Virus record (IMG/VR): IMGVR_UViG_3300042924_002106
Location: 1-24,264 of that record
Length of the DNA stretch: 24,264 nucleotides
Reading direction: 5' to 3' (one strand)
DNA from: a virus
Part shown: one piece after another, positions 2,199-21,727 of the stretch
How positions within the stretch are numbered: the first letter of the stretch is position 1
Layout of the letters: each line of letters opens with the position of its first letter
Translations under genes and position numbers: made by a program
The notes under the pieces: generated by a model
Database searches by the model: none
What the model was told of the DNA's origin: nothing
The model's input: only the letters and a program-made list of their open reading frames with translations

Positions 2199-2202
2199 AG
2201 GT
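2197..2202 (+). promoter_or_regulatory. Ribosome binding site for the DUF4815 giant protein
   Basis: AGAGGT lies 11 bases before ATG 2214, slightly farther than usual, and its first bases are the end of the gp8 TAG stop. It supports ATG 2214 as the start. Confidence 0.55.
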
Positions 2203-2213
2203 AAATTAAAAAG

Positions 2214-5200: not shown

Positions 5201-8200
5201 TTACGGTCAAATTCCAGAATTTACAGACAAGAAGACTGGTGAAATTTATAGACTTAGAGATTGCATCGACTTCCGTCCTGCGAGAACAAATGCAACTAAC
5301 ACAGAATCAACTTTCAGTCTAACAGGAAATAAAGTTCCTATTCCAGATTCATCTTTTGATCTTGACTATGCTTATTATTTGCCGCGCATTGACAAATTGG
5401 TATTGACGAGAGAACGCGATTTTGAAGTGATCAAAGGCAAGCCAAGAAGAAATCCTCAAGAGCCAAAAGAGGGCGAAGATGATATGCTTCTTTATACCTT
5501 GACAATTCCTCCTTATACTTTTTCTCCTAAGGACATTGAAATTAAGTTCCATGAGAACAGAAGATATACAATGCGCGATATCGGTCAAATTGATCGTCGT
5601 GTTAAGAATCTTGAGTATTATGCTACGCTTTCGTTGCTAGAGAAGCAAGCAACTGATAAGCCTGTTTTTGACAATAGAGGATTAGAAAGAACGAAATATG
5701 GTATCGTTGTAGATTCTTTCGGCGGTCATGCTGTCGGTGACGTAAGAAATCCAGACTACAGAATAGCTATTGATAAGAATGCTGGTGAAATGAGACCTAG
5801 CCACCATACTCGAAACATAGATTTAGACTATGAAAGAAGTGGCGCATATGCAGATGTTGATAGAAAAAACAATGTCTTCATTCTAAAGCACACTGAAGAA
5901 GAGTATATAACTCAGCCATATGCGACAAAGAATATCTCTGTAACTGACTTCTTAATTGCCAAGTTTGATGGTAATTTGAAGCTAGTTCCAGAAAGCGATA
6001 TCTGGCATGAAGATGAAATTCTTCCAGACGTTATCGTAAACATCGGTGGCGAAAACGATGCATGGAAAACAATCAGCAGAGCTTTGTCTCTAATTGAAGA
6101 CGAAGATAATCCTTTTGGTAAAGAGTGGAATGATTGGGAAACAATCTCTACTGGTAAACCAAGACTATTGAACTCTGTGTCTGATACTGACGTTTCAAAA
6201 TCAAATTGGGTACAAACTCCAAATCCAAATGATAATAAAAACAGACAACAGCGAACTGTCACAACTACAACAACCGTTTCAAACACATATAGCGTGAAAG
6301 TTGAACAAAGCAGAACAGGAACGCAGACATCACTTACAACTGAAGTTGTTAATAAATCTTTGGGCGCTAAAGTTGTAGACTCAAGCATTATTCCTTACAT
6401 TCGCTCTAGACCCATCAATTATCTGTCCGAAGGACTAAGACCTGAGAGAAGATATTTTCATTGGTTTGACAATACAAACATTGATGAATACATCGCTCGT
6501 CCGAATGAAATTGTAATCAACAAGCTAAACAGTATCAGATTCCGCGGACTTGAAAGCGGAGAAGGCGAACAGCTTGTTTCAGGACAAAATTCTGCTCCGT
6601 TAATTTTGGTTAATGGTAGAACATTATATGTAGGACCTGAAAATGGCGATGATTTCCAAAACTTTGATGTGACATCTGATACATACTTTGTTTCTAAAGG
6701 TAGAACTGCGAACAATAACGCGGCTACCTTAACACAAAGGTCGGAATCATACACATTCACAAAGAACGGCACAGTATTCATATTCTACAATACATATGCC
6801 GCTCTAAATTCTGTTGAAATTTACAGATCAAACGGTACTGTTAATATATCTAACACTGCTCCTATCTTTGTGGCCAATTCAACATATACCGATGGTCGTA
6901 AGCCAAATAAAGCAGAACTTAGAGCGTATCTATCTATTCCTTATTCTGGCGCCAACGTTGCTCCTTCACGCTTTATTGGTCCGTTCGGTCAACCAAGCGA
7001 ATTGGGAGAAAACGATCAAAACAGATTTGGTATTTTTGAACTTGATTTTGACAAGTCTGAGGGCAACACAATTCACGTTGTTGTAGGAAATAATCAAGTT
7101 TCTGGTAGAGGAAGTCCCTATCAGTATGCAATCTCATTGAACAGAAAAGAAAGTGAGTTGTTAACTGTCGGACAAACAATTATAGGTTCTATCACAGGTG
7201 CAACAGCTAATATTGCAAGTATCAATCACTACACTGGAAGCGCAAGACCTATCTCTGGAACAACAGCCACAAATAGAATTGCTCTTGCTAGAACAGCAAG
7301 TTCGGTAAATAATTACTATGTTGGCAACACAGTGTTTATTGTATCAGGACAAGGCGCAGGACAAAGTGCGTTAATCACAAGTTACAATGGCACAACAAAG
7401 ATAGCCACAGTTAACGTTGCTTGGACATCTGTTCCAATCTCTAACTCAATTTACTCAATAGGTCACAACCAATCAAATGAAGATGGTGATCTTCCAGGAA
7501 CGTTCTTCATTCCTGCAACAGAAGATTTGAAGTTTAGAACTGGTGAACGTCTAATGAAGGTTACCGATTCTGTACAGAATGATGATGATGATGCAACATC
7601 TAAAGCTTCAACTCTTTATCATGCTATGGGTCTATTGAACACTAAGCAGGGTGATGTATTAAGCACAAGAGTTCCTGTAATTGATACAAAAACTATCACT
7701 AAAAATAGAACAGTAACCGACAGATTTAATACAACTGAAGTAACTACAGCAGAACAAAATGAATTTAGAATTTATAAAGATCCTATTGCACAAACATTTA
7801 TGGTATCTAGTGCTGAATATCCGCAAGGTCTCTTCTTAACATCTGTTGATCTTTACTTTGCAAGAAAAGATGATAGATTGCCTGTTTATGTTGAATTAAG
7901 ACCTACTGTAAATGGTTATCCTTCTTCTAGTATAATTCATCCTCACAGCACTGTTACGCTTAAGCCAGCTAGTGTAAATGTTTCAACTGTGCCAAGCGTA
8001 ACACAAGCTAACACAGCAACAACATTTACATTCAAGTCTCCAGTTTATCTGCCACCAGGCGAACATGCCTTTGTTGTCGGATCTGACTCGGCCGAATATG
8101 AAGTGTTTGTGTGTGAAGTTGGTCAAACACAAATTGGAACTGGTGCTAGAATTTCTAAGCAGCCATATTTAGGATCATCATTTAGATCGCAAAACTCTAC

Positions 8201-9248
8201 AACTTGGACACCTTTCCAATTTGAAGATATTATGTTCAAACTGAACAAGGCAAGATTTACGCTGGGAACAGGAACTGTTCTTCTGACAAATGCCAAAATA
8301 AATACCAAAAAGAATTATGATGGTGTTTATTTGACAACAGAAGAATTGAAGTTTGCGGGAACAAGTATCTCTTATGAGCTAAAGACTAACGTCGATAACT
8401 ATTTCGATATCATTCCAGACAGAACAACAATGTTCCAGCCATCTGGCGGCTCTTATACTCAGAGAGAAGTTGGTCCTGGACAAGGAACTATGAACGTTCG
8501 CGTCAGAATGACAACAACAAATCCTGATTTGACGCCAGTTCTTGATCTTGACCGTGTTTCAGTAAAAGCCATTGAAAACATTGTAACTAATGGTGGAATA
8601 ACAGACGGTCTAATCAAAGTAAAAGAAGGTGGTACTGGTTATAATGCAGCATCAATTTCTATTACTGGAGGCGGTGGTGTAGGAGCCAATGCCTATGCAC
8701 GAATTACAGATGATGGAGAAATTGAAGCCATTGTCGTAACTGCTCCAGGATCAGGTTACTTTGGAACGCCAACAATTACAATAACAGGCGATGGCTCTGG
8801 AGCAGTTGCTTCATTTAACTCTGAAGAAAGCGGTTCTGGCGGTAATATGAAAGCCCGCTATATTACCCGTAAGGTTACACTCGCTGACGGATTTGATGCT
8901 GGTGACTTGAAGGTTTATCTTGATGCTTACAAGCCTACTGGTACAGACTTATCTGTTTACTACAAGGTATTGAACAGCACAGACAATACAGAGTTTGAGC
9001 AAAGACCATATATACAAATGACACAAGTAGGCAAAGATGTTCGTTCTAGAGATGAATCTGAGTTCATTGAATACGAATTTGTTCCAAATGTAAGTGAGGG
9101 CAAGATCAAGTATAATCCAAATGATGATCAGAATCAGTTCAAGACTTTCAAATACTTTGCTATCAAGATAGTATTGACAGCACGATTCTCAAGTATTGTT
9201 CCTAAAGTTAAGAACTTGAGAATTATGGCATTACCAGAAAGCGATTGA
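2214..9248 (+). CDS. Giant DUF4815-type baseplate/tail structural protein
   Basis: 2344 residues. The N-terminus has the DUF4815 signature of T4-like aquatic phages: VFPYYDDFSEDKNFHRILF, PGYAVQARELTQLQ and QNQIERFGSHIF (about 19-65), then DPGKAYVKGYEFET near 324. A second conserved part holds YYLPRIDKLVLTRER (about 1053) and RDIGQIDRRVKNLEYYATL (about 1120-1138). A Thr-rich TVTTTTTVSNTY linker lies near 1350 and RPINYLSEGLRPERRYFHW near 1400. A beta-sandwich-like block with DPIAQTFMVSS and PVYLPPGEHAFVVGSDS spans about 1855-2020. A GGTGY/GSGYFGTP module lies near 2138-2200. A short GxYNGTTxxATV module occurs twice (about 4129-4230 and 7348-7425). DUF4815 has no assigned biochemical role. Position after gp8 suggests the baseplate periphery, replacing T4 gp9/gp10, and it may carry the fibres. 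I see no enzyme motif. Confidence 0.85.
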   Translation: MAKANIANTQVVPVESTVFPYYDDFSEDKNFHRILFRPGYAVQARELTQLQTILQNQIERFGSHIFAEGSLVLGGQISTDFSTNMITLNSQFANTDINLVDFSGQVINEVTGDKKARAKVIAIDSSVATAPVLAIKYLSGSEFANNDTIQVNNTTTNASISLVTNSIKGSTVQVREGIFFISGYFVKAPTQTIILEKNSATPSYRVGLELQDDIITEDSDASLLDPAQESYNYQAPGATRYQVNLVLSKRPLNDDSDTSKFIELLRVRNGVIQKVIKYPTYSEIEKTLARRTYDESGDYTIDPFLIELKANTQNTSLVRAILDPGKAYVKGYEFETIAPTDIIVEKARTTAPVENYNLSMPGGNYIIVEKIRAKGNSFFNTSILEKADIHCVKHANVATSSTNAYNSTKIGTTYIKNMTYDSSTFNQNSDAYRYKAYLFDTNFVSLTSDNAFSNANSVIFRANAYIIGSGASTRTYVLNDLANFTGEFRLLYNVYLAPNEIRLYQGNDSSQTDLIGSANAVNNYFTGVFAPTEGEILEHERLGGSRFVGVLGRGPALGIDDQGRFGIIRAGHGTSKNYYKVEVLGGSPFEFSYSVRQNNATQLIQLANLANATAAARVSSVNGAYEDVVLRIYEGNARGYKGTITAYNGTTRTATVTPAFTGLLPNTSSKFSLTFDETDIESIVTGTTNKDAVADISISSKVGGIEDGDSFIEDKSFSPLIFQLPNAPVAANSIAEQEFSYNKLFSSVEFNSSGIAQISADTGEAFVGDGLLSDSEILENYTVIITNNRGSTNVANGQLLAFTRSGYSITVDAGTGIANLTTGIASADIPDGFTAKVITRQNINTGNKRLQKTKTRIAGNNVQLLSFTAADGRFGASNTSVYLNAGQVFITNPNKVNGQGDNLYISDVANLVRVYESATNAIAANTRFSGGGLSDVTNKYTLDNGQNDSFYDHAKIILRPGVAPPKGAIVAVVNYFRHDLTPGDGYFSVDSYNSIDYGQIPEFTDKKTGEIYRLRDCIDFRPARTNATNTESTFSLTGNKVPIPDSSFDLDYAYYLPRIDKLVLTRERDFEVIKGKPRRNPQEPKEGEDDMLLYTLTIPPYTFSPKDIEIKFHENRRYTMRDIGQIDRRVKNLEYYATLSLLEKQATDKPVFDNRGLERTKYGIVVDSFGGHAVGDVRNPDYRIAIDKNAGEMRPSHHTRNIDLDYERSGAYADVDRKNNVFILKHTEEEYITQPYATKNISVTDFLIAKFDGNLKLVPESDIWHEDEILPDVIVNIGGENDAWKTISRALSLIEDEDNPFGKEWNDWETISTGKPRLLNSVSDTDVSKSNWVQTPNPNDNKNRQQRTVTTTTTVSNTYSVKVEQSRTGTQTSLTTEVVNKSLGAKVVDSSIIPYIRSRPINYLSEGLRPERRYFHWFDNTNIDEYIARPNEIVINKLNSIRFRGLESGEGEQLVSGQNSAPLILVNGRTLYVGPENGDDFQNFDVTSDTYFVSKGRTANNNAATLTQRSESYTFTKNGTVFIFYNTYAALNSVEIYRSNGTVNISNTAPIFVANSTYTDGRKPNKAELRAYLSIPYSGANVAPSRFIGPFGQPSELGENDQNRFGIFELDFDKSEGNTIHVVVGNNQVSGRGSPYQYAISLNRKESELLTVGQTIIGSITGATANIASINHYTGSARPISGTTATNRIALARTASSVNNYYVGNTVFIVSGQGAGQSALITSYNGTTKIATVNVAWTSVPISNSIYSIGHNQSNEDGDLPGTFFIPATEDLKFRTGERLMKVTDSVQNDDDDATSKASTLYHAMGLLNTKQGDVLSTRVPVIDTKTITKNRTVTDRFNTTEVTTAEQNEFRIYKDPIAQTFMVSSAEYPQGLFLTSVDLYFARKDDRLPVYVELRPTVNGYPSSSIIHPHSTVTLKPASVNVSTVPSVTQANTATTFTFKSPVYLPPGEHAFVVGSDSAEYEVFVCEVGQTQIGTGARISKQPYLGSSFRSQNSTTWTPFQFEDIMFKLNKARFTLGTGTVLLTNAKINTKKNYDGVYLTTEELKFAGTSISYELKTNVDNYFDIIPDRTTMFQPSGGSYTQREVGPGQGTMNVRVRMTTTNPDLTPVLDLDRVSVKAIENIVTNGGITDGLIKVKEGGTGYNAASISITGGGGVGANAYARITDDGEIEAIVVTAPGSGYFGTPTITITGDGSGAVASFNSEESGSGGNMKARYITRKVTLADGFDAGDLKVYLDAYKPTGTDLSVYYKVLNSTDNTEFEQRPYIQMTQVGKDVRSRDESEFIEYEFVPNVSEGKIKYNPNDDQNQFKTFKYFAIKIVLTARFSSIVPKVKNLRIMALPESD

Positions 9249-9249
9249 T

Positions 9250-9492
9250 ATGAGTGAAAAAGTTCAAATTGAAGGCAAATCAAATCTTGTCCGAGACATC
9301 AATTCAAAGGCCTTACTCAATACGGATTTAAGGTCTTTGAATGAATATCAGTTGAAGAAAAAGATGATGATTAGTATGGAACAAAATGAAAGTGAGATAA
9401 ATAACATAAAAGAACGTTTAAGTAAAATAGATTCGCTAGAATCTGATTTGAAAGACATTAAAGATTTGCTTCAAAGGATAATCAATAAATGA
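9250..9492 (+). CDS. Small coiled-coil protein, possibly virion-associated
   Basis: 80 residues, charged, with no signal peptide or membrane segment. The N-terminal half has SNLVRDINSKALLNTDLRS, a pattern I associate with small uncharacterised proteins of T4-like aquatic phages. The C-terminal half (about 45-79) is a strong heptad coiled coil with I/L at core positions (INNIKERLSKIDSLESDLKD). It starts one base after the giant DUF4815 gene, and its stop overlaps the start of fibre 1 (ATGA at 9489-9492), which indicates translational coupling. The context suggests a linker or assembly factor between the giant protein and fibre 1. That is inference; the function is unknown. Confidence 0.7.
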   Translation: MSEKVQIEGKSNLVRDINSKALLNTDLRSLNEYQLKKKMMISMEQNESEINNIKERLSKIDSLESDLKDIKDLLQRIINK

Positions 9493-12400
9493 CCGCTATT
9501 GCCAATGTAAGTTTAACAAACACATTTGATGAATGGAGAACTATTACCAATCAGTTGGTCTTTTTGGCCAATGAAGTTGAAGCAAATGGAAATCTTGTAA
9601 GAGTTCAATCTAACACTTCTGCTATCAGAGTTACCGCCAACATTGGTCGAGGCGATATCATTTATATAAGTGCGAATGTAAGTTATAACATTGCAGATCA
9701 ATCTAGAGCAAATCTAGCATCTGCTAATGTTGTTAATGCAGTTCACAATGTTCTTACAGTTGCTTTTGCTCAAGCAAACACATCATATAACCATGCCAAC
9801 GCTGCATTCTTTCAAGCTAATCAGGCTTTCTTAGAAGCAAACACTGCCGAAACATGGGCTGTAGCTGCTTTTAATCGCGGTAACAACGTATTTATACACG
9901 CAAACTCTTCATATAATCAAGCTAATCAAGCATTCTTTCAAGCTAATCAGGCTTTCTTAGAAGCAAACACTGCCGAAACATGGGCTGTAGCTGCTTTTAA
10001 TCGTGGTAATACCGTATTCACACACGCCAATTCTTCTTATAATCAAGCTAATCAGGCATTTTCACAAGCTAATGCGGCAAATGTTCTAGCATTTAACTCA
10101 GCGGCAGGAGCCAATGCTTGGGTAAATACGGTTTATGGTTTTACTAATACTTATACTAGAGCAGTAGGAACAGCAGGCAATACTTATGCAGAAACAACTG
10201 CCGCTGGTGCTAATGCCTATACTAGAGTAGTTGGTACAGCAGGCAACACTTATGCTGAAGCGACTGCCGCTGGTGCTAATGCCTATACTAGAGTAGTTGG
10301 TACAGCAGGCAACACTTATGCCATGACAATTGGAACGTCCTCTAATGCTTGGACAAATACTGTATTTGGATTATCAAATGCATATACACAAGCAGTAGGA
10401 ACAGCAGGCAATACTTATGCAGAAACAACTGCTGCTGGAGCAAATGCCTATACTAGAGTAGTTGGTACAGCAGGCAATAACTATACTATAACTGTTAGTG
10501 CGGCATCTAATGCTTGGACAAATACTGTATTTGGATTATCAAATGCATATACACAAGCAGTGGGCGCAGCAGGCAATACTTATGCTAGAGTGGTTGGTAC
10601 AGCAGGCAACACTTATGCACAAGTTATTGGTTTAGCATCAAATGTAATGTTAGGAGATGCCTTTTTCCAGGCAAATCAAGCTTTTGCGGTGGCAAATAAT
10701 GCGGCTGGAAATACTACAATCTTGATTGGCAGTGCCTTTGGTCAAGCCAATCAAGCATTTAATACTGCCAATACAGCGGCAGCAAATGCTTTAGGTGCCT
10801 TCTTAAGATCAAATATAACATTTACTCATGCTAATGCTGCCTTCTTCCAGGCAAATCAAGCCTTTGCTGTGGCTAATGCTGCACCAGCTAATGCTGCCTT
10901 CTTCCAGGCAAATCAAGCTTTCAATACTGCAAATACATCAGCAGCAAATGCTCTAGGCGCTTTCTCTAGATCAAATATAACATTTACTCATGCTAATGCT
11001 GCCTTCTTCCAGGCAAATCAAGCTTTTGTTGTGGCCAATACCGCAAATATCAGAGCAGAAGATGCCCACTCACGAATTGACACATTAGTTTTGACAAGCA
11101 ATAGTAACACCGCAATTGTTACTGATATTGCTTTGAGTGCATTTAATAAGGCAAATTTAGCAAACATAACTGCTGAAAATTCTTTTTTCCAAGCTAATCA
11201 AGCATTTTTCCAAGCTAATCAAGCGTTTGCGAAAGCCAATTCAACAACATATACATCAAATGTGGTAATTTCAGTAACAGATAATACAAATGCTGCGCTT
11301 AGAATTACACAAACAGGTACCGGTGATGTAATTAGAGTTGAAGACTCTGCTACCGATGCTACTCCTTTTGTAATAAATTCTTCTGGTTATGTTGGCATAG
11401 GTGCATCAAGTCCTTCAGTGGCGTTAGATGTTGAAGGAACAACAGTAGAATCATTTGTTGGTACTGGTAGTGTTTCTGGAAACGTTTTATCTGTAACAAT
11501 AGTGACATCGGGAACGCTCTCTGTTGGAGACTATATCACATTTGATAATTTTGGTCTGAAATTTGGTGCTTATATTAGAACATTCAGCACGGGTTCGGGT
11601 GGAACAGGAAATTATTTCTTAAGTGAATCTGGATCAGTATCGTCTAGTACCTTTAGATCGGCAGATTTGAGAGATAGAACGATAAGTATTACTAAGAATG
11701 ATTCCGTTATTCAGCCTGGCGAACCCATTGGTCTAATTCAGTTCAAATCGACAGATGCTTCAATCGACACGAAAGATGAAACAAGAGCGTTCTTAGGCGC
11801 TCAAGCGATATCACTCGATGGATCAGTTGATCTTATTTTAGGAACAGCAGTAGGAACAAACTCTGCATCCGAAAGACTTAGAATTACGAAAGATGGCGCT
11901 CTGTCATTTAACGGAGCAGCAGTGGGTGCGGCTGGCACAATTTTGAGATCGCAAGGCGCATCTTTGCCTATGATCTACGAAGCCGATAAGGCATACGATC
12001 AAGCTAACGCTGCCAATGTTCTAGCATTCAACTCTGCTGCTGGTGCTAATGCATGGGCTAATGTGATTGGTGTAAATGCAAATGCTTATGCAAACGTTGT
12101 CGGTCAAAGATCAAACAACTTTGCACTTTCTCTTGGTACACAATTTAATAGCATTAACACTTATGTTACATTAACAGGAACTGCTGTTAATGCTATTACT
12201 GGCTCAGCTTTTTTCCAGGCAAATCAAGCATTTGCTCAAGCTAACGCTGCCAATGTTCTAGCATTCAACTCTGCTGCTGGTGCTAATGCATGGGCTAATA
12301 CAATTGGTGTTAGATCAAACAACTTTGCACTTTCTCTTGGTACACAATTTAATAGTCTTAATACATATGTTTCATCAACAGGAACTGCTGTCAATGCTAT

Positions 12401-14702
12401 AAGTGGTGCAGCTTTCTTCCAGGCTAATCAAGCCTTCTTTACTGCAAATAATGCTTTACCTAAAACTGGCGGCACGATTAGTGGTGATTTGATCATTAGT
12501 GGCAACATTACTATTTCAGGCAACACGACATACACAAATACCCAGACTCTTCTGATTGGTGACAATATTTTTGTGTTGAATGCCGATCTGCCTTCAACTT
12601 CTGCGCCTTCAGAAAATGCTGGTATGACTGTCAATAGAGGTAATGCTGCTAATGCTGAAATTGTTTGGAATGAAACTGACGATAGTTGGACATTCAATAG
12701 CGGCACAGGAACATATCTAAACTTAGCATCAAACACAGATGTTTATACAATTGGTCTTGCATCAAATGCTTACGCAAATGTTATCGGCCAAAGATCAAAC
12801 AACTTTGCACTTTCTCTTGGTACACAATTTAATAGTCTTAATACATATGTTTCATCAACAGGAACTGCTGTCAATGCTATAAGTGGTGCAGCTTTCTTCC
12901 AGGCTAATCAAGCCTTCTTTGTTGCTAATACTTCTGGCGATGAAGCTGCTGGTGCATTCTTAAGAGCTAATGGCGCATTTAATCAAGCTAATCAGGCATT
13001 TGCGAAAGCCAACTCAACATCATTTACATCTAACGTAGTCATTTCTGTTGCAGATAGCACCAATGCAGCACTAAGAATTACACAGACTGGTACAGGCATT
13101 GCTCTGCTTGTTGAAGACAGCACGAATCCCGATAGTACCCCAACAGTCATCACGGACGCAGGACGGATCGTCACTGGCAGTGATACAGCTTACAGTGTGG
13201 ATAACACATATGGCGGCCAAATTACCCCGCGTATCCAGACCCACGGCACCACGACTGAGAGTGCGGCACTCGCTGCAACATTGTGGACGACCTCGGGCGC
13301 TGGTAGTCAGGCAGTTCTTTCCAAATCTCGCAGTGGAACAATCGGCACCAACACAATTGTGCAAAACAACGATGATCTTGGTGCCATTGTATTTGATGGC
13401 GATGATGGTTCCTTGTTCACTGTTGCTGCATCCATAGTTGGATCTGTTGATGGGACACCTGGAGCAAATAATATGCCAGGTAGACTCGTTTTCAGCACAA
13501 CCGCTAACGGCGCATCAGTCCCAACAGAACGTATGCGTATTACTGCTAATGGTAATATTGGCATTGGCACAACATCTCCATCAGCAAATCTTCATGTTGT
13601 TGGCAATGCAATAATTTCTACTGCTCTATCAGTAGGCACAATAAATGTTGCTCCAGCAATTGGTGCAGCATTTGATAAAGCAAACGCAGCTAACGTCTTA
13701 GCATTTACATCTGGTAATGAAGCTCAAGGTGCATTCTTGAGATCAAACGTTGCATGGCTTCATGCCAATGCGGCTTTTTTCCAGGCAAATCAAGCCTTCG
13801 CTGACGCTAATACTGCCGAAGCGTGGGCAGCAGGCGCTTTCTTAAGGGGTAACGTTGCTTTCAGTCAAGCTAACCAGGCATTTGCTGTTGCTAACACATC
13901 TGGCGCTGAAGCTGAAGGTGCCTTCTTAAGAAGTAACGTCACATTTGCTCATGCTAATGCTGCTTTCTTACAGGCTAATCAGGCTTTTGCGAAGGCTAAC
14001 GCTGCTAACGTACTTGCATATAACGCATCACTATCTACGGTTAAAGCCACAAATCTTGATGGTGGTGCTACAGGACAAATTGCTTATCAGACAGCAGCAG
14101 ATACTACAGGCTTCTTAAGTGCCGGCACGTATGGTAAAGTATTAAAATCTTCTGGATCAGGTGTTGCTCCTATTTGGGATACAGTTCCAACTTATGCAGA
14201 TAGTTATACTCTTTTCGGAACATCAGGTATTTCTGGAACTGCAACTGAAGTAAGTGGCTTAAATGCAACTTATGTGGAATATGCTGTGCCAACATGGGCA
14301 AGAAAAATTACAATCTTACTTAATCAACTTGCTCCTGATGGAACAGGAAATGATATTGGTATTAGACTGGGCGATTCAGGAGGCATTGAGACAACAGGAT
14401 ATGTTGCTGGTTCAGCAATATTGACTGGCGGTATAGGTAATTATCACGCAACATTTACTAATGGATTTTTCATTAACGCATATACTTATGGAATAACTTA
14501 TACAGGATCTATAGTTCTTACCAGAATGGGCGGTGAAACAACTTGGATATGTTCTGGTGTTTTGACTGATGATGGTACCGGCACTATGATGTTAATATCA
14601 GGAAGAAAAACTCTATCGGGCAATATTACTACGGTGAGAATCCTTGCTGAAGGTGGTACAACATTTGATATTTTAGGCGGTTTTTCAGTAGCATATGAAT
14701 AA
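9489..14702 (+). CDS. Long tail fibre 1, heptad/hendecad repeat protein
   Basis: 1737 residues. A short non-repeat head (about 1-85, starting MTAIANVSLTNTFDEWR) is the likely virion anchor. The shaft alternates heptad tracts (AFFQANQ-type; about 90-200, 395-590, 1390-1515), an 11-residue tract (VGTAGNTYAET-type; about 205-390) and mixed tracts. Three beta modules interrupt it: about 587-836 (with VGIGASSPS), 988-1080 (LPKTGGTISGDL, ISGN repeats) and 1176-1390 (with NIGIGTTSPSANLHV). The NLDGGATGQIAYQTAADTT segment near 1520 is a motif common just before fibre tips. A beta-rich tip fills about 1570-1737. No S74 peptidase/chaperone domain is visible at the C-terminus. Repeats and module order indicate a host-recognition fibre; the receptor is unknown. 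A chaperone-like gene follows 11 bases later. Confidence 0.87.
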   Translation: MTAIANVSLTNTFDEWRTITNQLVFLANEVEANGNLVRVQSNTSAIRVTANIGRGDIIYISANVSYNIADQSRANLASANVVNAVHNVLTVAFAQANTSYNHANAAFFQANQAFLEANTAETWAVAAFNRGNNVFIHANSSYNQANQAFFQANQAFLEANTAETWAVAAFNRGNTVFTHANSSYNQANQAFSQANAANVLAFNSAAGANAWVNTVYGFTNTYTRAVGTAGNTYAETTAAGANAYTRVVGTAGNTYAEATAAGANAYTRVVGTAGNTYAMTIGTSSNAWTNTVFGLSNAYTQAVGTAGNTYAETTAAGANAYTRVVGTAGNNYTITVSAASNAWTNTVFGLSNAYTQAVGAAGNTYARVVGTAGNTYAQVIGLASNVMLGDAFFQANQAFAVANNAAGNTTILIGSAFGQANQAFNTANTAAANALGAFLRSNITFTHANAAFFQANQAFAVANAAPANAAFFQANQAFNTANTSAANALGAFSRSNITFTHANAAFFQANQAFVVANTANIRAEDAHSRIDTLVLTSNSNTAIVTDIALSAFNKANLANITAENSFFQANQAFFQANQAFAKANSTTYTSNVVISVTDNTNAALRITQTGTGDVIRVEDSATDATPFVINSSGYVGIGASSPSVALDVEGTTVESFVGTGSVSGNVLSVTIVTSGTLSVGDYITFDNFGLKFGAYIRTFSTGSGGTGNYFLSESGSVSSSTFRSADLRDRTISITKNDSVIQPGEPIGLIQFKSTDASIDTKDETRAFLGAQAISLDGSVDLILGTAVGTNSASERLRITKDGALSFNGAAVGAAGTILRSQGASLPMIYEADKAYDQANAANVLAFNSAAGANAWANVIGVNANAYANVVGQRSNNFALSLGTQFNSINTYVTLTGTAVNAITGSAFFQANQAFAQANAANVLAFNSAAGANAWANTIGVRSNNFALSLGTQFNSLNTYVSSTGTAVNAISGAAFFQANQAFFTANNALPKTGGTISGDLIISGNITISGNTTYTNTQTLLIGDNIFVLNADLPSTSAPSENAGMTVNRGNAANAEIVWNETDDSWTFNSGTGTYLNLASNTDVYTIGLASNAYANVIGQRSNNFALSLGTQFNSLNTYVSSTGTAVNAISGAAFFQANQAFFVANTSGDEAAGAFLRANGAFNQANQAFAKANSTSFTSNVVISVADSTNAALRITQTGTGIALLVEDSTNPDSTPTVITDAGRIVTGSDTAYSVDNTYGGQITPRIQTHGTTTESAALAATLWTTSGAGSQAVLSKSRSGTIGTNTIVQNNDDLGAIVFDGDDGSLFTVAASIVGSVDGTPGANNMPGRLVFSTTANGASVPTERMRITANGNIGIGTTSPSANLHVVGNAIISTALSVGTINVAPAIGAAFDKANAANVLAFTSGNEAQGAFLRSNVAWLHANAAFFQANQAFADANTAEAWAAGAFLRGNVAFSQANQAFAVANTSGAEAEGAFLRSNVTFAHANAAFLQANQAFAKANAANVLAYNASLSTVKATNLDGGATGQIAYQTAADTTGFLSAGTYGKVLKSSGSGVAPIWDTVPTYADSYTLFGTSGISGTATEVSGLNATYVEYAVPTWARKITILLNQLAPDGTGNDIGIRLGDSGGIETTGYVAGSAILTGGIGNYHATFTNGFFINAYTYGITYTGSIVLTRMGGETTWICSGVLTDDGTGTMMLISGRKTLSGNITTVRILAEGGTTFDILGGFSVAYE
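9806..10057 (+). repeat. 126-bp tandem repeat, two copies (fibre 1 heptads)
   Basis: Copies at 9806-9931 and 9932-10057; the first 72 bases are identical and later differences are few. 126 bp is 42 residues, exactly six heptads, so gain or loss of a copy keeps both frame and coiled-coil register. Confidence 0.9.
10201..10332 (+). repeat. 66-bp tandem repeat, two copies (fibre 1 hendecads)
   Basis: Two copies (10201-10266 and 10267-10332), identical over the first 55 bases. 66 bp is 22 residues, or two 11-residue repeats (AGANAYTRVVG + TAGNTYAExxA). A further partial relative lies near 10432-10490. A nearly identical segment of about 56 bp at 10341 recurs at 10506, 165 bp (five hendecads) away. 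Confidence 0.9.
12312..12440 (+). repeat. 129-bp perfect direct repeat, left copy
   Basis: Identical to 12792-12920, 480 bp downstream (160 codons, in frame). It encodes RSNNFALSLGTQF through SGAAFFQANQAFF. The two copies flank the LPKTGG beta module of fibre 1, so recombination between them would remove the module cleanly. Confidence 0.93.
12792..12920 (+). repeat. 129-bp perfect direct repeat, right copy
   Basis: Right partner of the copy at 12312-12440. The base before the left copy and the bases after each copy differ, so the identity has sharp limits, as expected after a recent duplication or gene conversion. Confidence 0.93.
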
Positions 14703-14707
14703 AAGGA
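14703..14707 (+). promoter_or_regulatory. Ribosome binding site for chaperone-like gene 1
   Basis: AAGGA directly after the fibre 1 stop and six bases before ATG 14714. The equivalent gene after fibre 2 has the same arrangement. Confidence 0.6.
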
Positions 14708-14713
14708 AAAAAT

Positions 14714-14944
14714 ATGGAAGATCAAGATAAAATAAATTATGAAAATAATTTAAATAAAGTACGCAATCGTAGAAATTTTTTGTTAAGCGAAAGCGATCTA
14801 TACGTTCTTTCTGATAGATGGGATTGGTATACTCAAGATCAAAAAGATGCCTGGAAAAAATATCGTCAAGATTTAAGAGATATGCCTGAAACTTTTTCTA
14901 AAAATCCAAGTTGGCCTCCAACTTGGCCAACAAAACCGGAATAA
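14714..14944 (+). CDS. Tail-fibre assembly chaperone-like protein 1 (Phage_tail_APC type)
   Basis: 76 residues. The core reads SESDLYVLSDRW, then a YT..QK.A...YRQDLRDMPETF block, and ends in a Trp/Pro-rich tail (WPPTWPTKP). The LP/S-DRW, YRQxLRDxPET and WPxxP pattern is that of small phage tail-assembly chaperone-like proteins placed directly after fibre genes. It is paralogous to the 98-residue product of 21737-22033 but lacks that protein's first 30 or so residues. It probably helps fold, trimerise or attach fibre 1, inferred from family and position. It could instead be a minor fibre-associated component. Confidence 0.75.
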   Translation: MEDQDKINYENNLNKVRNRRNFLLSESDLYVLSDRWDWYTQDQKDAWKKYRQDLRDMPETFSKNPSWPPTWPTKPE

Positions 14945-14947
14945 CAA

Positions 14948-15286
14948 ATGGCAACTTTTGAAGAACTCTATATTGATCAAGGCACAGACTACTCTAAGAA
15001 GATAGTTCTTAGAGACGAGTCAACAAACTCATTGATCAATGTGTCGGGCTATACTGTTCGCAGTCAAATGCGTAGATCATTCTATTCAACGAATGCTTCC
15101 GCAAATATCACTTGCACGATAACAGATGGAGCAAATGGAGAGATTACACTTTCACTTACTCCAAATGTTACATCAAACATTAAAGCTGGTAGATATATCT
15201 ATGATGTTGAAACTGTAGATGCTAACAACATTACTACTCGTATTCGTGAAGGTATCATCAACATTTATCCAGAGATCACACGATAA
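14948..15286 (+). CDS. Ig-like/BppU-N-like structural protein, function unknown
   Basis: 112 residues, beta-rich. Recognisable segments are LYIDQGTDYSKKIVLRDE (about 7-24), LINVSGYTVRSQMRRS (about 29-44), a GEITLSLTPNVTSNI strand pair and RYIYDVETVD (about 82-91). The order 'input, SGYTV, NGxITLSL, AGRYxYDVE' resembles the N-terminal domain of BppU-type baseplate proteins, and similar small proteins occur in T4-like aquatic phages. The stop overlaps the PAAR start (TAATG at 15284-15288), suggesting coupled expression with the spike tip. A baseplate or spike accessory role is inferred. The Shine-Dalgarno is weak. Confidence 0.6.
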   Translation: MATFEELYIDQGTDYSKKIVLRDESTNSLINVSGYTVRSQMRRSFYSTNASANITCTITDGANGEITLSLTPNVTSNIKAGRYIYDVETVDANNITTRIREGIINIYPEITR

Positions 15287-15609
15287 TGCCAGGCGCACAT
15301 AGAGATACAGATAGCAGATTTTGTGGAGCAAAGACTAAAGCTGGTGGGCAAGGAACTGTAAGAGTAAACGGTCTTCTTTGGGCAGTAGAAGGCGATGTTG
15401 ACACTCACTGCGATCAAGGATCATTAAGTGCAGTTTATGGCGCACTAAACGTTCGCATCGAAGGGAAACTCGTTATTTGTGCAATGGGAGACATGGCTGC
15501 TCCAGATAAGCTAGGTTGCTTCATCAAACATCCAACAGGTGCTACAAATCCAAAAGGACATTCAAACGATGTGATCGTATACGGAGGAGCTGCTGGCGGC
15601 GGTTCATGA
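15286..15609 (+). CDS. gp5.4: PAAR-type spike tip protein (T4 gp5.4-like)
   Basis: 107 residues; T4 gp5.4 has about 97. PAAR proteins form a small metal-stabilised cone that caps the gp5 tail spike and pierces the outer membrane. The sequence has the PAAR layout: an N-terminal MPGAHRDTDS, then VNGLLWAVEGDVDTHC (about 28-42), NVRIEGKLVICAMGDMA (about 55-71), GCFIKHPTG (about 77-85) and a NDVIVYGG end. His41, Cys42, Cys78 and His82 are candidates for the metal site; which of them bind is not shown by sequence alone. The gene sits between the two fibres and overlaps its downstream neighbour (ATGA at 15606). A Gly-rich end (GGAAGGGS) closes the protein. Confidence 0.83.
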   Translation: MPGAHRDTDSRFCGAKTKAGGQGTVRVNGLLWAVEGDVDTHCDQGSLSAVYGALNVRIEGKLVICAMGDMAAPDKLGCFIKHPTGATNPKGHSNDVIVYGGAAGGGS

Positions 15610-15941
15610 CTTGGTATTTCAATGAGATTGTTCGCTCAGGCAACTCACAGGCAAGAATCAAGAACTATTATCCAGACACAGGGTTAATAGTTCTTTATGA
15701 TATAAAGGGAGTCATAGAAGCTGGCTCAACCATTGTTGGTGATGAATCTGGAACAACAACAACTTTAACGAATTTTGTTATTGCAAGAGAGTTTGATTTA
15801 GGATATGAACCAGATTATTGGGACTATATACTAGAGAATGGAATTTATGACGATAGTGGCGACTTCATTGCCCTTGATGCTCACTTCACAGGCAAACCAA
15901 GTCAAGATTATCAGACAACTTATTGGATTGTATTAGGTTAA
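15606..15941 (+). CDS. Small beta-rich structural protein, function unknown
   Basis: 111 residues. I chose ATG 15606, which overlaps the PAAR stop as ATGA. An upstream in-frame ATG at 15516 would add 30 Lys/Arg/Cys-rich residues that are only the PAAR gene read in another frame. Residues about 8-58 (ARIKNYYPDTGLIVLYDIKG, then GSTIVGDESGTTTTL) look like the small beta module found in gp8 and gp14. The C-terminal half is acidic and aromatic (GYEPDYWDYILENGIYDD). Its stop overlaps the fibre 2 start (TAATG). Tight linkage to PAAR and fibre 2 suggests a spike or fibre attachment role; this is inference. Confidence 0.62.
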   Translation: MTWYFNEIVRSGNSQARIKNYYPDTGLIVLYDIKGVIEAGSTIVGDESGTTTTLTNFVIAREFDLGYEPDYWDYILENGIYDDSGDFIALDAHFTGKPSQDYQTTYWIVLG

Positions 15942-18900
15942 TGGCAGTAGCAATTTCAAATTTAACGGCTTATTGGGCAACATCAGCCAGCAGTGTGAAT
16001 ACTGCTATCAAAATGAATGCCAATGATGTTGTATCAGCGGCAAATTCTAAGTTACTAGATTTACAAGTCAATGATGTTTCTAAGTTTGTTGTATTTAAAA
16101 GCGGAAACACTGTTGCAAACGGAATTATAGTAGCAAATTCGTTTGTTACATCTGGCGGAATAAATCTCATCTCTGCTATTCAAACTATCAATGTTGGCAG
16201 TGGTGATATCGGTCCTGCCTTCTTTCAAGCCAATCAAGCGTTTTCTCAAGCTAATCAGGCTTTTGCTGCCGCCAACTCATCTTCTCCTCAATCAATTGGC
16301 GATGCGTTTGGTCAAGCCAACCTTGCGTTTGCCAAAGCCAATGCAGCTAATGTTCTAGCATTTAACACAGGTGCAGGCGCTAATGCATGGACTAATACTG
16401 TTTATGGCTTTATCAACACATACACTCAAACCGTAGGTACCGCTGGTAATGCTTATGCGAGAGAAGTTGGCACAGCAGGTAATGTTTATGCGAGAACAGT
16501 CGGTACAGCAGGTAACGTTTATGCAAGAGAAGTTGGCACTGCTGGAAATACATATACTCAGACTGTCGGCGCTGCATCAAATAGCTATGCAGACTCTCTA
16601 TTTGCATCATCAGGCGGATCAGCAGGACAAGCATTTAATAAAGCTAACACTGCCAACATTACAGCCGATCAAGCATTTAATAGAGCTAACGCAGCCAACG
16701 TTCTAGCTTTTAACTCTGCCGCAGGGGCTAATGCATGGACTAATACTGTTTATGGATTCATCAATACATATACTCAAACAGTTGGTACTGCTGGAAATAC
16801 TTATGCTCAGAGCGTTGGTGCAGCATCTAATCTACTAGTTGGTGCTGCTTTCTTTCAAGCTAATCAAGCCTTTGCTGTTGCTAATACTTCTGGCGCTGAA
16901 GCTGAAGGTGCCTTCTTCCAAGCTAATCAAGCATTTAATACTGCCAATACAGCGGCAGCAAACGCTTTAGGTGCGTTTACAAGATCAAATGTTGCATGGT
17001 TTCATGCTAATGCTGCCTTCTTCCAGGCAAATCAAGCTTTTGCTGAAGCCAACACTGCTGAAACATCAGCTTCGGCAGCATTCAATAAAGCTAATTCCGC
17101 CAATGTTCTAGCGTTCAATAGTGCTGCTGGTGCTAACGCATGGACCAATGCTGTTTATGGATTTACTAATACTTACATACAAACAGTAGGTGCTGCATCT
17201 AATCTATTAGTTGGCGCTGCTTACTCTCAAGCCAATCAAGCGTTCAACACCGCAAATACAGCGGCAGCAAACGCTCTAGGCGCTTTCTCTAGATCAAATA
17301 TAACATTTACTCATGCCAATGCTGCTTTCTCACAAGCTAATCAAGCTTTTGCTGTTGCTAATACTGCTGGCGCTGAAGCTGAAGGTGCCTTCTTCCAAGC
17401 TAACCAGGCTTTTGCACTAGCCAATGCTGCTAACGTTCTTGCGTTCAATGCTTTGCCAAAAACTGGCGGCACTATAACTGGTAATGTTTCTATAGTTGGA
17501 AATCTTTTCATATCAGGCAATAGTCAGTTTCAAAATGTAACTACATTGTCTATTGGTGATCCACTAATCTATCTGGCCGCAAATAACTATTCTTCTGATA
17601 TTGTAGATATCGGTTTTATTGCAAATTATGTAAACTCCACTGGTTCTAATGTTCATACGGGTCTATATCGTGAACATGAAAACAAGATGTATTACTTGTT
17701 CCAAGGATACGATAAAGAACCTGTTGATAATCATATTGGAGCGTTATCTAACAATATGACATTGGCTGTTCTTAACGCAGATTTGATCACATCAAATCTT
17801 GTATTAGGCGGCATAAACGCTATATCTTGGATATCAGGAGCATTTACAAGAGCTAACACTGCCAATATTACGGCCGATCAAGCATTTAATAGAGCTAACG
17901 CAGCCAACGTTCTAGCATTCAATAGTGCCGCTGGCGCCAATGCTTGGGTTAATACAGTTTATGGATTTACTAATACTTACATACAAACAGTTGGTACTGC
18001 ATCTAATGTCTGGTCTAACACAATCGGTGTATATGCAAATGCTTATGCAAACGTTATTGGAACAAGATCAAATAACTATGCTCTATCTATTGTTGGTCCA
18101 GCATTCAATCAGGCCAATTCTGCTAATGTTCTAGCATTCAATAGTGCTGCTGGCGCCAATGCTTGGGTTAACACAGTATATGGATTTACTAACACATATA
18201 CACAAACAGTAGGTGCAGCAAGTAATTCACTGGCGGTAGCGGCATTCTCTCAAGCTAATCAAGCTTTTGCACAAGCAAACACATCTTCTCCACAAACAGT
18301 TGCAGATGCTTTTGGACAAGCCAATCAAGCTTTTGCTCAAGCCAATGCTGCTAACGTTCTAGCATTTAACAGTGCTGCTGGTGCTAATGCGTGGGCTAAT
18401 ACAATTGGTGTAAATGCCAATGCTTACGCAAATGTTATTGGAACAAGATCAAATAACTATGCTCTATCTATTGTTGGTCCAGCTTTTAATAAAGCTAATG
18501 ACGCTAATGTTTTAGCATTTAACTCTGCCGCTGGTGCTAACGCATGGACTAACACTGTTTATGGATTTATCAACACTTATACACAAACTATAGGTGCATC
18601 ATCTAATGCATGGACTAACACTGTTTATGGACTAAGTAATACGTTTACACATACTATTGGCGGCGCAGCTTTTGGTCAAGCCAACTTAGCTTTTGCTAGA
18701 GCCAATGGTAGTTTTAATCAGGCTAATCAAGCTTTTGCTTTAGCCAATGCCGCTAATGTTTTAGCATTTAATGCTTTACCTAAAACTGGTGGAACTGTTA
18801 CAGGCGATCTTATTCTAACAGGCACCACTATTCTAATTAACAATTCGGCTGGCGCTGGTGGCACAGATGAAGGCGGTGAAATAAAACTTGCAAATCCTAC

Positions 18901-21727
18901 ATCAAATTCTATCCTTTCTGGTCCAATTGCTATTGACATTTATCAAAATAGGATTCGTTTCTTTGAAACAAATAGTCCTAATCGCGGAGCATTTATCAAT
19001 CTAGCTTCTACTAGTGCTGGTGCTGCTACCGATCTTCTAGCGTCACCATCAGCAACAGATACAGTAGCTAGAAATTCGGCAGGTGCAGCATTTGATAAAG
19101 CCAATGCCGCTAACGTTCTAGCATTTAATGCCTTACCGAACACAAACGGCGCAGTATTTAATGGAACTTTAACTGCGAGTGCAAATCTTTCAGCAGATAA
19201 AATAATATCGACAAACAACGGCAATGGTGAAAACTTCAGACTTGGTGATGATGCTTGGATCGGCGATACAAATATTGCTAATGCTTTTCGTATTAAAGGT
19301 CAACAAAACGCATCAATTGGTTACGTTATATTTGGACCAAACGACGGCAAACTTTTAGGTCGTGATGGTACAGGCCCCCTAACATATGACGGCAACAATG
19401 TTTGGCACGCTGGTAATGATGGAACGTCTTCGGGTTTAGATGCCGATCTGCTTGATGGTCAACAAGGTTCATATTACGCCATAGCTACTGATAGTGCTAA
19501 TGCATTCAATAAAGCCAATGGTGCCAACGTTTTAGCATTCAATAGTGCTGCTGGTGCCAATGCTTGGGCTAACACAATAGGCATATATGCAAATGCTTAT
19601 GCAAACGTTATTGGAACAAGATCGAATAACTTTGCTCTTTCTCTTGGAACTCAGTTTGATAGTATCAACACTTATGTTTTGAACACAGGTACTGCTGTTA
19701 ATGCTTATGCAAACGTTATTGGAACAAGATCAAATAACTATGCTCTATCCATTGTTGGTCCAGCATTTGATAAAGCCAACTCAACGACATACACATCAAA
19801 TGTAGTAATTTCTGTTACTGATAACACTAATGCGGCACTAAGAATTACTCAGACAGGTACTGGTGATGCAGTAAGAGTGGAAGACAGTGCAAATCCAGAT
19901 AGCACTCCATTCGTCATTACGGCAACAGGTGATGTTGGTATTGGTGTAACATCTCCCGATACAAAACTCGCAGTTGTAGGTAGTGGTCAAGGACTCAATT
20001 TTAATACTGCCGATAATCTTGGCGCATCAATTCTTGTTGGTGATAGCGGAACAGCAGCTCAAAATGGTGGTTCAATTGTATTCTCTGCATTTTCTGAAGC
20101 ATGGAAATTTGCTGCTATTAAATCACATGTTTTAAATGGCACATCAAATACAGTAGGCGACATTTCTATTCTTACTCGTCGTGTCACGACAGATTCAACA
20201 TTAACAGAAACAGCGAGATTTACATTTACAGGTAACGTTGGTATAGGAACAAATAATCCGCAATACAAACTTGACGTTTCTGGCGCAGTAAATGCTTCGG
20301 CCTTTCTAATTAATGGTATTCCTGCTCTTCCAAATACATCTGGCATTTCTTTTAATGGAAATCTAAATTTTCCAAATGGTAATGTATCTATCGGTTCAAC
20401 CACATCAGAAGGTCTTCTAACTCTTAGAGGTTATACTGGAGGCACTGTAGGTTCTGTTGTCGATAATTTTACAAAAACTCTTGTTATCGGTGGCGCTTAT
20501 AATCAACCTTATAATTCAGGCAATACAGTACTACTTCACATATTAGACTATGATAATGATACTGGTTCTGATGTTTATCCTGTCTACATTGAAGATGAAA
20601 ACAACATTGTTGACTTTTTCATAAACGCAGGAAATAACGGAACAATTAGCACGAAAAAAGTATATGTTGGAGGAAATTTAGGTATTGGCATTACATCTCC
20701 AACATCTAAGTTGCATGTTTCTGGCACAGCAAATATTACCTCTTCACTAGAAGTATTAGGATCAAACATAACATCTGCAATTGCAGCAGGCAACACGTTT
20801 ACACATACTATTGGTGGCGCAGCATTTTTCCAAGCTAATCAAGCCTTCGCTGATGCTAATACTGCTGAAACATGGGCAGCAGGAGCCTTCTTAAGAGGTA
20901 ACGTTGCATGGCTTCATGCCAATGCAGCATTTTTCCAAGCTAATCAAGCCTTCGCTGATGCTAATACTGCTGAAACATGGGCAGCAGGAGCCTTCTTAAG
21001 AGGTAACGTTGCATGGCTTCATGCCAATGCAGCATTCTTTCAAGCAAATCAAGCCTTCGCTGATGCTAACACTGCTGAAACATGGGCAGCAGGAGCCTTC
21101 TTAAGAGGTAACGTAGCGTTTAGTCAAGCAAATCAGGCATTTGCTGTTGCGAATGCGGCACTACCTTCTTCATCGTATACAGCAGCAGATGTTTTAAGCA
21201 AATTATTGACTGTTGATGGTACAGGATCATTATTAGATGCCGATCAGCTGGACGGTTGGCATCAATCACAACTTGGAGGAAAACAGTTAACAGCCGCTTC
21301 TGTAGGAACAGGTACTACGGCAGATTATAGTTGGGTTACTGCAGGATCTATAGATTGGTTAGGGCCGGCACCTGTTCATCTTAGTGTTATGCTTAGAGGT
21401 CTGAGTCATGGCGCAGCAACTTCTCAGCCACTTAGGATTCAGTTTTCGGATGATAAGGGTGTAACGTTTACGACAGCAATAAACATTTCTCCGCCTGTTG
21501 CGGCTTCTACAGCATTAAACGGACACATACTTGTTTACAGACCATCTGCAACAACATCAACTAAAGTTATAGTATGGAATACAAGCCCACAAGATCGTTC
21601 TAGTTCAAACGTAGGAACATGGGAACTTCCAGGCGCTGGCGGTACGGCAGCATTGACTAATGTAAGATTTGGTTTTGCTTCTGGTAACTTTGACGCAGGA
21701 ACAGTTTATGTTTATGCTTATAGTTAA
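15941..21727 (+). CDS. Long tail fibre 2, heptad/hendecad repeat protein
   Basis: 1928 residues from ATG 15941 (TAATG overlap); an in-frame ATG at 15923 adds only six residues from the preceding gene. The head (about 1-90, MAVAISNLTAYWATS) is unlike that of fibre 1. Heptad/hendecad shaft tracts span about 92-503, 632-940, 1183-1283 and 1607-1744. Beta modules include two LPKTGG blocks (about 504-630, 944-1050), a block with VWHAGNDGTSSGLDADLLDGQ (near 1150-1180) and a block of repeated VGIGxxxP/LGIGxxSP motifs (about 1283-1607). The tip (about 1744-1928) has LDADQLDGWHQSQLGG, then a beta-rich domain ending VYVYAYS. No S74 domain is visible. It lies just before gp13, where T4 has gene 12 and wac. 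A chaperone-like gene follows. Confidence 0.87.
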   Translation: MAVAISNLTAYWATSASSVNTAIKMNANDVVSAANSKLLDLQVNDVSKFVVFKSGNTVANGIIVANSFVTSGGINLISAIQTINVGSGDIGPAFFQANQAFSQANQAFAAANSSSPQSIGDAFGQANLAFAKANAANVLAFNTGAGANAWTNTVYGFINTYTQTVGTAGNAYAREVGTAGNVYARTVGTAGNVYAREVGTAGNTYTQTVGAASNSYADSLFASSGGSAGQAFNKANTANITADQAFNRANAANVLAFNSAAGANAWTNTVYGFINTYTQTVGTAGNTYAQSVGAASNLLVGAAFFQANQAFAVANTSGAEAEGAFFQANQAFNTANTAAANALGAFTRSNVAWFHANAAFFQANQAFAEANTAETSASAAFNKANSANVLAFNSAAGANAWTNAVYGFTNTYIQTVGAASNLLVGAAYSQANQAFNTANTAAANALGAFSRSNITFTHANAAFSQANQAFAVANTAGAEAEGAFFQANQAFALANAANVLAFNALPKTGGTITGNVSIVGNLFISGNSQFQNVTTLSIGDPLIYLAANNYSSDIVDIGFIANYVNSTGSNVHTGLYREHENKMYYLFQGYDKEPVDNHIGALSNNMTLAVLNADLITSNLVLGGINAISWISGAFTRANTANITADQAFNRANAANVLAFNSAAGANAWVNTVYGFTNTYIQTVGTASNVWSNTIGVYANAYANVIGTRSNNYALSIVGPAFNQANSANVLAFNSAAGANAWVNTVYGFTNTYTQTVGAASNSLAVAAFSQANQAFAQANTSSPQTVADAFGQANQAFAQANAANVLAFNSAAGANAWANTIGVNANAYANVIGTRSNNYALSIVGPAFNKANDANVLAFNSAAGANAWTNTVYGFINTYTQTIGASSNAWTNTVYGLSNTFTHTIGGAAFGQANLAFARANGSFNQANQAFALANAANVLAFNALPKTGGTVTGDLILTGTTILINNSAGAGGTDEGGEIKLANPTSNSILSGPIAIDIYQNRIRFFETNSPNRGAFINLASTSAGAATDLLASPSATDTVARNSAGAAFDKANAANVLAFNALPNTNGAVFNGTLTASANLSADKIISTNNGNGENFRLGDDAWIGDTNIANAFRIKGQQNASIGYVIFGPNDGKLLGRDGTGPLTYDGNNVWHAGNDGTSSGLDADLLDGQQGSYYAIATDSANAFNKANGANVLAFNSAAGANAWANTIGIYANAYANVIGTRSNNFALSLGTQFDSINTYVLNTGTAVNAYANVIGTRSNNYALSIVGPAFDKANSTTYTSNVVISVTDNTNAALRITQTGTGDAVRVEDSANPDSTPFVITATGDVGIGVTSPDTKLAVVGSGQGLNFNTADNLGASILVGDSGTAAQNGGSIVFSAFSEAWKFAAIKSHVLNGTSNTVGDISILTRRVTTDSTLTETARFTFTGNVGIGTNNPQYKLDVSGAVNASAFLINGIPALPNTSGISFNGNLNFPNGNVSIGSTTSEGLLTLRGYTGGTVGSVVDNFTKTLVIGGAYNQPYNSGNTVLLHILDYDNDTGSDVYPVYIEDENNIVDFFINAGNNGTISTKKVYVGGNLGIGITSPTSKLHVSGTANITSSLEVLGSNITSAIAAGNTFTHTIGGAAFFQANQAFADANTAETWAAGAFLRGNVAWLHANAAFFQANQAFADANTAETWAAGAFLRGNVAWLHANAAFFQANQAFADANTAETWAAGAFLRGNVAFSQANQAFAVANAALPSSSYTAADVLSKLLTVDGTGSLLDADQLDGWHQSQLGGKQLTAASVGTGTTADYSWVTAGSIDWLGPAPVHLSVMLRGLSHGAATSQPLRIQFSDDKGVTFTTAINISPPVAASTALNGHILVYRPSATTSTKVIVWNTSPQDRSSSNVGTWELPGAGGTAALTNVRFGFASGNFDAGTVYVYAYS
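16433..16597 (+). repeat. 33-bp tandem repeat, five units (fibre 2 hendecads)
   Basis: Units start at 16433, 16466, 16499, 16532 and 16565, each encoding VG(T/A)A(G/S)NxYxxx. Synonymous differences between units show that the protein pattern is kept while the DNA diverges. Confidence 0.9.
20821..21135 (+). repeat. 105-bp tandem repeat, three units (fibre 2 heptads)
   Basis: Units start at 20821, 20926 and 21031. The first two are identical across 105 bp; the third differs at scattered bases and more strongly in its last 25 or so. 105 bp is 35 residues, five heptads. A related single unit occurs in fibre 1 near 13770-13870. Confidence 0.93.

Follow-up and report, generated by a model that had tools for sequence, protein, structure and literature searches.

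Two giant tail fibres of an uncultured, marine-type T4-like phage with alternating 7- and 11-residue repeat blocks that probably form segmented coiled-coil rods

The stretch of viral DNA analysed here (the window; 24,264 nucleotides of an IMG/VR contig) carries a T4-like structural gene set in which gp8 is followed by a giant DUF4815 gene, a small gene, and the gene for the first of two long fibres, fibre 1 (1737 aa). An LtfC-like gene, a PAAR-like gene, and another small gene separate it from fibre 2, and 3′ of fibre 2 lie a small gene, a gp13-like adaptor, the gp14 neck gene, and a final ORF that we take from its position to be gp15. Matches to gp8, the head-tail adaptor Ad2, and the T4 neck protein/Hc2 mark this as a T4-like tail fibre neighbourhood. 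The gp14 product is nearest to those of cyanophages, at ~40% identity, and the gene order is comparable to that of S-CREM2 and, in part, to that of phiM9. The DUF4815/phrog_358 protein (2214-9248; 2344 aa) is apparently a baseplate or fibre-network component. Of the genes between the fibres, the LtfC-like one (L-shaped tail fibre assembly protein; 14948-15286) possibly encodes a fibre assembly factor, and the PAAR-like one (15286-15609), whose small product matches the PAAR motif weakly, possibly encodes a spike-tip protein. Judging from the TAATG overlap with the upstream ORF, the most likely start codon of fibre 2 is the ATG at 15941, and the protein then has 1928 aa. Both fibres are matched by PHROG tail fibre profiles (9942, 18345, 13173, 32829, and 13481; 32829 and 13481 match mostly over heptad zones of fibre 2), but these entries cover the fibres partially and give neither structure nor period.

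A block parse, in which an HMM divided the fibres into heptad, 11-mer, and non-repeat parts, assigned 518 aa of fibre 1 and 597 aa of fibre 2 to heptad blocks and 323 and 367 aa, respectively, to 11-mer blocks. The remainder consists of non-repeat modules, among them the GNVGIGTTSP type, which are presumably beta and divide the repeat blocks from one another. Repeat blocks reappear along the whole length of both fibres, beyond the N-terminal 500 residues (Table 1).

Table 1 Features of the two fibre genes, with positions in the window and the evidence for each.
Feature	Position	Strand	Evidence
Fibre 1: N-terminal domain, shaft blocks, beta-type modules, C-terminal tip	9489..14702	+	ORF, PHROG, block parse
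Fibre 1 heptad block, residues 92-208, holds 126-bp array	9762..10112	+	Autocorrelation, TRF, HMM; AlphaFold2 helix
Fibre 1 11-mer block, residues 209-385, ~16 units	10113..10643	+	Arrays of 33/66/165 bp; HMM; AlphaFold2 low-confidence strands
Fibre 1 second heptad block, residues 386-526, holds out-of-phase ANAAP	10644..11066	+	HMM, spacings; AlphaFold2 helix
Fibre 1 short heptad block, residues 548-584, precedes first beta-type module	11130..11240	+	HMM
Fibre 1 mixed heptad/11-mer block, residues 835-989	11991..12455	+	HMM, spacings
Fibre 1 mixed 11-mer/heptad block, residues 1080-1175	12726..13013	+	HMM, spacings
Fibre 1 last heptad block, residues 1393-1510; tip exchange site relative to L005/L007	13665..14018	+	HMM, comparison
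Fibre 1 C-terminal tip	14019..14702	+	Comparison with near-identical relatives
Fibre 2, 1928 aa (most likely start)	15941..21727	+	ORF, block parse, PHROG tail fibre matches
Fibre 2 first shaft, residues 92-504, heptads and 11-mer blocks	16214..17452	+	Autocorrelation, HMM, spacings
11-mer blocks inside fibre 2 first shaft	16367-16612, 16730-16831, 17135-17203	+	HMM
Fibre 2 second shaft, residues 633-945, mixed	17837..18775	+	HMM, spacings, relatives
Fibre 2 mixed block, residues 1187-1280	19499..19780	+	HMM, spacings
Fibre 2 last heptad block, residues 1615-1740, holds 105-bp array	20783..21160	+	TRF, HMM, relatives
Fibre 2 C-terminal tip, residues 1741-1928	21161..21727	+	HMM

The initial annotation had described two fibres that alternate between 7- and 11-residue blocks, and both autocorrelation and the HMM parse bear this out. 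Identity autocorrelation over residues 90-590 of fibre 1 and 92-503 of fibre 2 gave separate 7- and 11-residue peaks in both fibres. For fibre 1, the heptad series (7, 14, 21, 28, 35, and 42) reached z values of 7.0, 6.7, 5.1, 3.6, 6.9, and 8.3, and the 11-mer series (11, 22, 33, and 55) values of 5.5, 7.3, 5.8, and 8.4, with a sub-periodicity of 22 residues; fibre 2 showed peaks at 7 (z 6.3), 14, 21, and 28, and at 11 (z 8.5). Sliding windows and the HMM parse placed the two periods in different stretches. The annotated motifs also stand, with AFxxANx for the heptad and V/I-G-x-x-[SGA]-N-x-[YWF]-[AT]-x-x for the 11-mer. In the window, the heptad core is Phe in 59% and Ala in 85% of units, two core positions that recur every 7 residues, and Asn occupies position 6 in 68% of heptads and 99% of 11-mers. 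At the DNA level, TRF recovered the reported unit lengths of 126 and 105 bp (and also 21 bp) in heptad zones and 33, 66, and 165 bp in 11-mer zones, with one exception, a 57-bp (19-aa) tandem array at 10833-10952 within the heptad zone that holds the sole out-of-phase step, the Pro-containing ANAAP.

Unit spacings were measured from the small residue preceding each Asn. At sites picked with the HMM, which favours in-phase positions, 151 of the 152 spacings in both shafts were 7, 11, 14, 15, 18, 21, 22, or 36, all of which are compatible with helix phase; the single out-of-phase spacing is ANAAP in fibre 1. When AN, GN, and SN were counted independently of the HMM, the peaks were again at 7 and 11, and the extra spacings that appeared (3, 4, 5, 8, 9, 10, and 13) were mostly due to additional Asn residues. 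Read from the small residue, the heptad becomes A-N-x-A-F-x-x and the 11-mer A-N-x-Y-A-x-x-V-G-x-x, and on this alignment the 11-mer reads as a heptad with a 4-residue addition. Seven distinct 15-residue units are present in the window, all seven running into a heptad. Among the relatives, a biased sample obtained by sequence search, long 15-residue runs occur in L168 and 19-residue runs in L014, L020, L037, L047, L061, and L161, and 249 of the 281 distinct family units of up to 19 aa have lengths of 7, 11, 15, or 19. With these long runs, the family follows 7 + 4n, matching the consecutive-stutter series of coiled coils (7/2, 11/3, 15/4, and 19/5), of which 19/5 is the most extreme value and is found locally in YadA (PMC4786415). 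The L168 fibre itself (1939-6327; 1463 aa) mixes 11- and 15-residue Asn-anchored units and carries an S74 domain and a Phage_fiber_2 match.

The distribution of charge bears on which residues form the core. The proposed heptad register, with Phe at a and Ala at d, is consistent with charges that lie symmetrically on both sides of the Phe/Ala core and that in the window fall almost only at position 4 (26%). For the 11-mer, positions 1, 4, 5, and 8 had been assigned to a/d/e/h, and this assignment is not supported as it stands, since it includes position 4, which is charged (12% in the window, ~25% in the family, mostly Arg). Positions 5, 8, 9, and 1 show 0% charge, position 9 never being charged, and they are therefore the better core; the two registers are near-equal on hydrophobicity alone. 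With the 5, 8, 9, 1 core, the 11-mers have an 11/3 hydrophobic periodicity with uncharged a/d/e/h positions. Two further ideas were discarded: a one-residue slip of the Phe/Ala register at each junction, which is a product of the 1, 4, 5, 8 register and vanishes with 5, 8, 9, 1, and anion layers with Asn at d, as in adhesins, since the Asn here sits flanking the core in heptads or outside it in 11-mers.

The shafts had also been annotated as helical; AlphaFold2 monomer models support this for the heptads and give a mixed picture for the 11-mers. Within residues 85-584 of fibre 1, the heptad blocks are predicted to be helical, with pLDDT ~60-78 mostly in the first block and lower values in parts of the second, and the 11-mer block was modelled with one strand per unit at 11-residue spacing, at a very low pLDDT of 28-48. 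These strands are compatible with a different and rather unlikely architecture in which the heptads alone are helical and the 11-mers form beta rods (solenoid or beta-spiral), with a strand and a GxxGN turn per 11 residues and a ladder of Asn. Such rods would suit the composition of the 11-mers, which are high in Gly, Thr, Val, and Asn and made of poor helix formers, the 99-100% invariance of their Asn in window and family at a position expected to be exposed in a coil, and the 22-residue sub-periodicity of fibre 1. They would also suit the block boundaries: AANVLAFN is found ahead of 11-mer blocks and beta modules alike, and GPAF/GAAF opens heptads after either, so that the borders of 11-mer zones resemble those of separate domains.

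Apart from the very low confidence of the strands, several observations argue against beta rods. The fibre of the relative L044 combines the shared N-terminal domain with a homologous shaft of 11-mers, and AlphaFold2 modelled this shaft as a single helix across every 11-mer (pLDDT 62-78). Mean helix propensity is equal in the 11-mers of L044 (0.51) and the window (0.50-0.52). Both the fibre 1 and the L044 model were built from shallow alignments (8 and 12 rows). Hydrophobicity power in the window 11-mer is 0.60 at 3/11 compared to 0.05 at 5/11, the beta harmonic (permutation p ~0.02); 3/11 is weaker in the 11-mers of relatives (0.45, p ~0.10; 5/11 = 0.10), and the helical harmonic is not clear in 19-mers. 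On a helix, charged position 10 would lie opposite Tyr8 and Val1; on a strand, it would share a face with them. The four-residue ladder of 7, 11, 15, and 19 likewise speaks for helices. On this evidence, we lean towards helical 11-mer blocks and think it doubtful that they are beta.

Fibres of close relatives differ by whole units of 22, 35, 42, and 56 aa. Fibre 2 is identical in L005 and L007 apart from 35 aa (five heptads), by which L005 is shorter in the last heptad block, and both lack 22 aa (two 11-mers) of the second shaft of the window; in L006, 42 aa of fibre 1 are missing, and between L019 and L018 the difference is 56 aa. Because such whole-unit changes are expected from recombination between DNA repeats, they point to mechanism rather than selection and leave structure unproven. 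That the repeats are mainly a by-product of tandem duplication, in a flexible or poorly ordered shaft whose period matters little structurally beyond the frame, is nevertheless very improbable, given that, for all the near-identity of the arrays (97% among copies of the 105-bp array) and the varying copy number between otherwise identical fibres, diverged units in distant relatives retain core residues, Asn, and spacing, with charge limited to one or two positions per unit. Tips also differ between relatives: in fibre 1 of the window and L005, the body is identical at 492/501 positions and the tip at 53/184, and the flanking DNA is 96-99.5% identical. The two tips are unrelated, and the regions concerned are window 13665-14702, L005 1505-2359, and L007 1-1295; the exchange point lies within the last heptad block, and the L007 tip is of the L005 type.

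The repeat blocks most likely form segmented coiled-coil rods, and we give a probability of roughly 0.6 to the full reading, in which the two long fibres of this marine-type T4-like phage combine segmented, parallel, probably trimeric alpha-helical coiled-coil rods with beta-type modules and exchangeable tips. Heptad blocks would form left-handed coils with a Phe/Ala core and Asn adjoining it, and in 11-mer blocks an Asn-anchored heptad unit plus one 4-residue stutter would yield an almost straight 11/3 coil, the return to heptads passing through transition units of 11 or 15 residues. Recombination between near-identical DNA repeats could then alter shaft length by whole units and swap tips with the register intact. 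The S74 chaperone domain, which occurs in trimeric fibres, is present in seven relatives of the family, and a Pfam search found none in the window fibres. We infer the trimer, from the S74 domains in relatives and from phage fibres in general, as well as the helicity of the window 11-mers and the direction of twist. Using a helix value of 3.63 residues per turn (PMC4786415), our arithmetic gives ~+3.7 degrees per residue for heptads and ~-1 degree per residue for 11/3, or for fibre 1 ~5 left-handed turns in heptads and <1 right-handed turn in 11-mers. With so small a value for 11/3, the 11-mers would run almost straight, and the earlier suggestion that the shaft switches twist would be an overstatement.

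Extending this model to the whole phage fibre family, we tentatively consider it possible that shafts are built from one Asn-anchored unit in steps of four (7, 11, 15, and 19) and in long uniform blocks, that supercoil handedness and pitch are set per block, and that some relatives have a right-handed 19/5 coil over hundreds of residues. If helical, the family would supply naturally occurring long coils for every stutter period within a single sequence context, and with them a direct test of how period determines supercoil twist and of how a helix passes between periods. The repeats are also the place where shaft length changes and tips are exchanged among close relatives, which may bear on host-range change in uncultured marine phages.

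No account of fibre repeats of this kind turned up in the literature searched. Among phage records, Blast returned no isolate carrying them or the N-terminal domain, a search in which the low-complexity filter may hide some. The repeats were absent from five isolate regions that we inspected; a separate stretch of HTVC008M lay outside its fibre genes. A scan of genome contigs found no relative. Comparison of both fibres, and of two relatives, with PDB sequences gave no match over the repeats, including no detectable similarity to known phage fibre coil segments. Such segments occur in the trimeric phage fibres hyaluronidase 2C3F, P22 tailspike, and T7 gp17, as short heptad and hendecad stretches between beta parts (PMC4786415), and they comprise few units, whereas those of the present fibres span up to hundreds of residues. 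A beta module of fibre 1 (residues 1323-1406, GNIGIGTTSP...) matches the Bdellovibrio fibre proteins 8ond/8oml (E 3e-5 to 5e-5), a likeness confined to that module, with the repeats outside the match. Adhesin stalks are known for period transitions and interspersed beta domains. Trimeric autotransporter adhesins of the YadA, EibD, and SadA type likewise have stalk coils of changing period, with a local 19/5 in YadA (PMC4786415). No Pfam family matches either fibre, those of the YadA anchor and the head and stalk domains included, and, unlike adhesins, the fibres lie amid phage structural genes with no membrane anchor seen and are built from units anchored on Ala-Asn in long uniform blocks.
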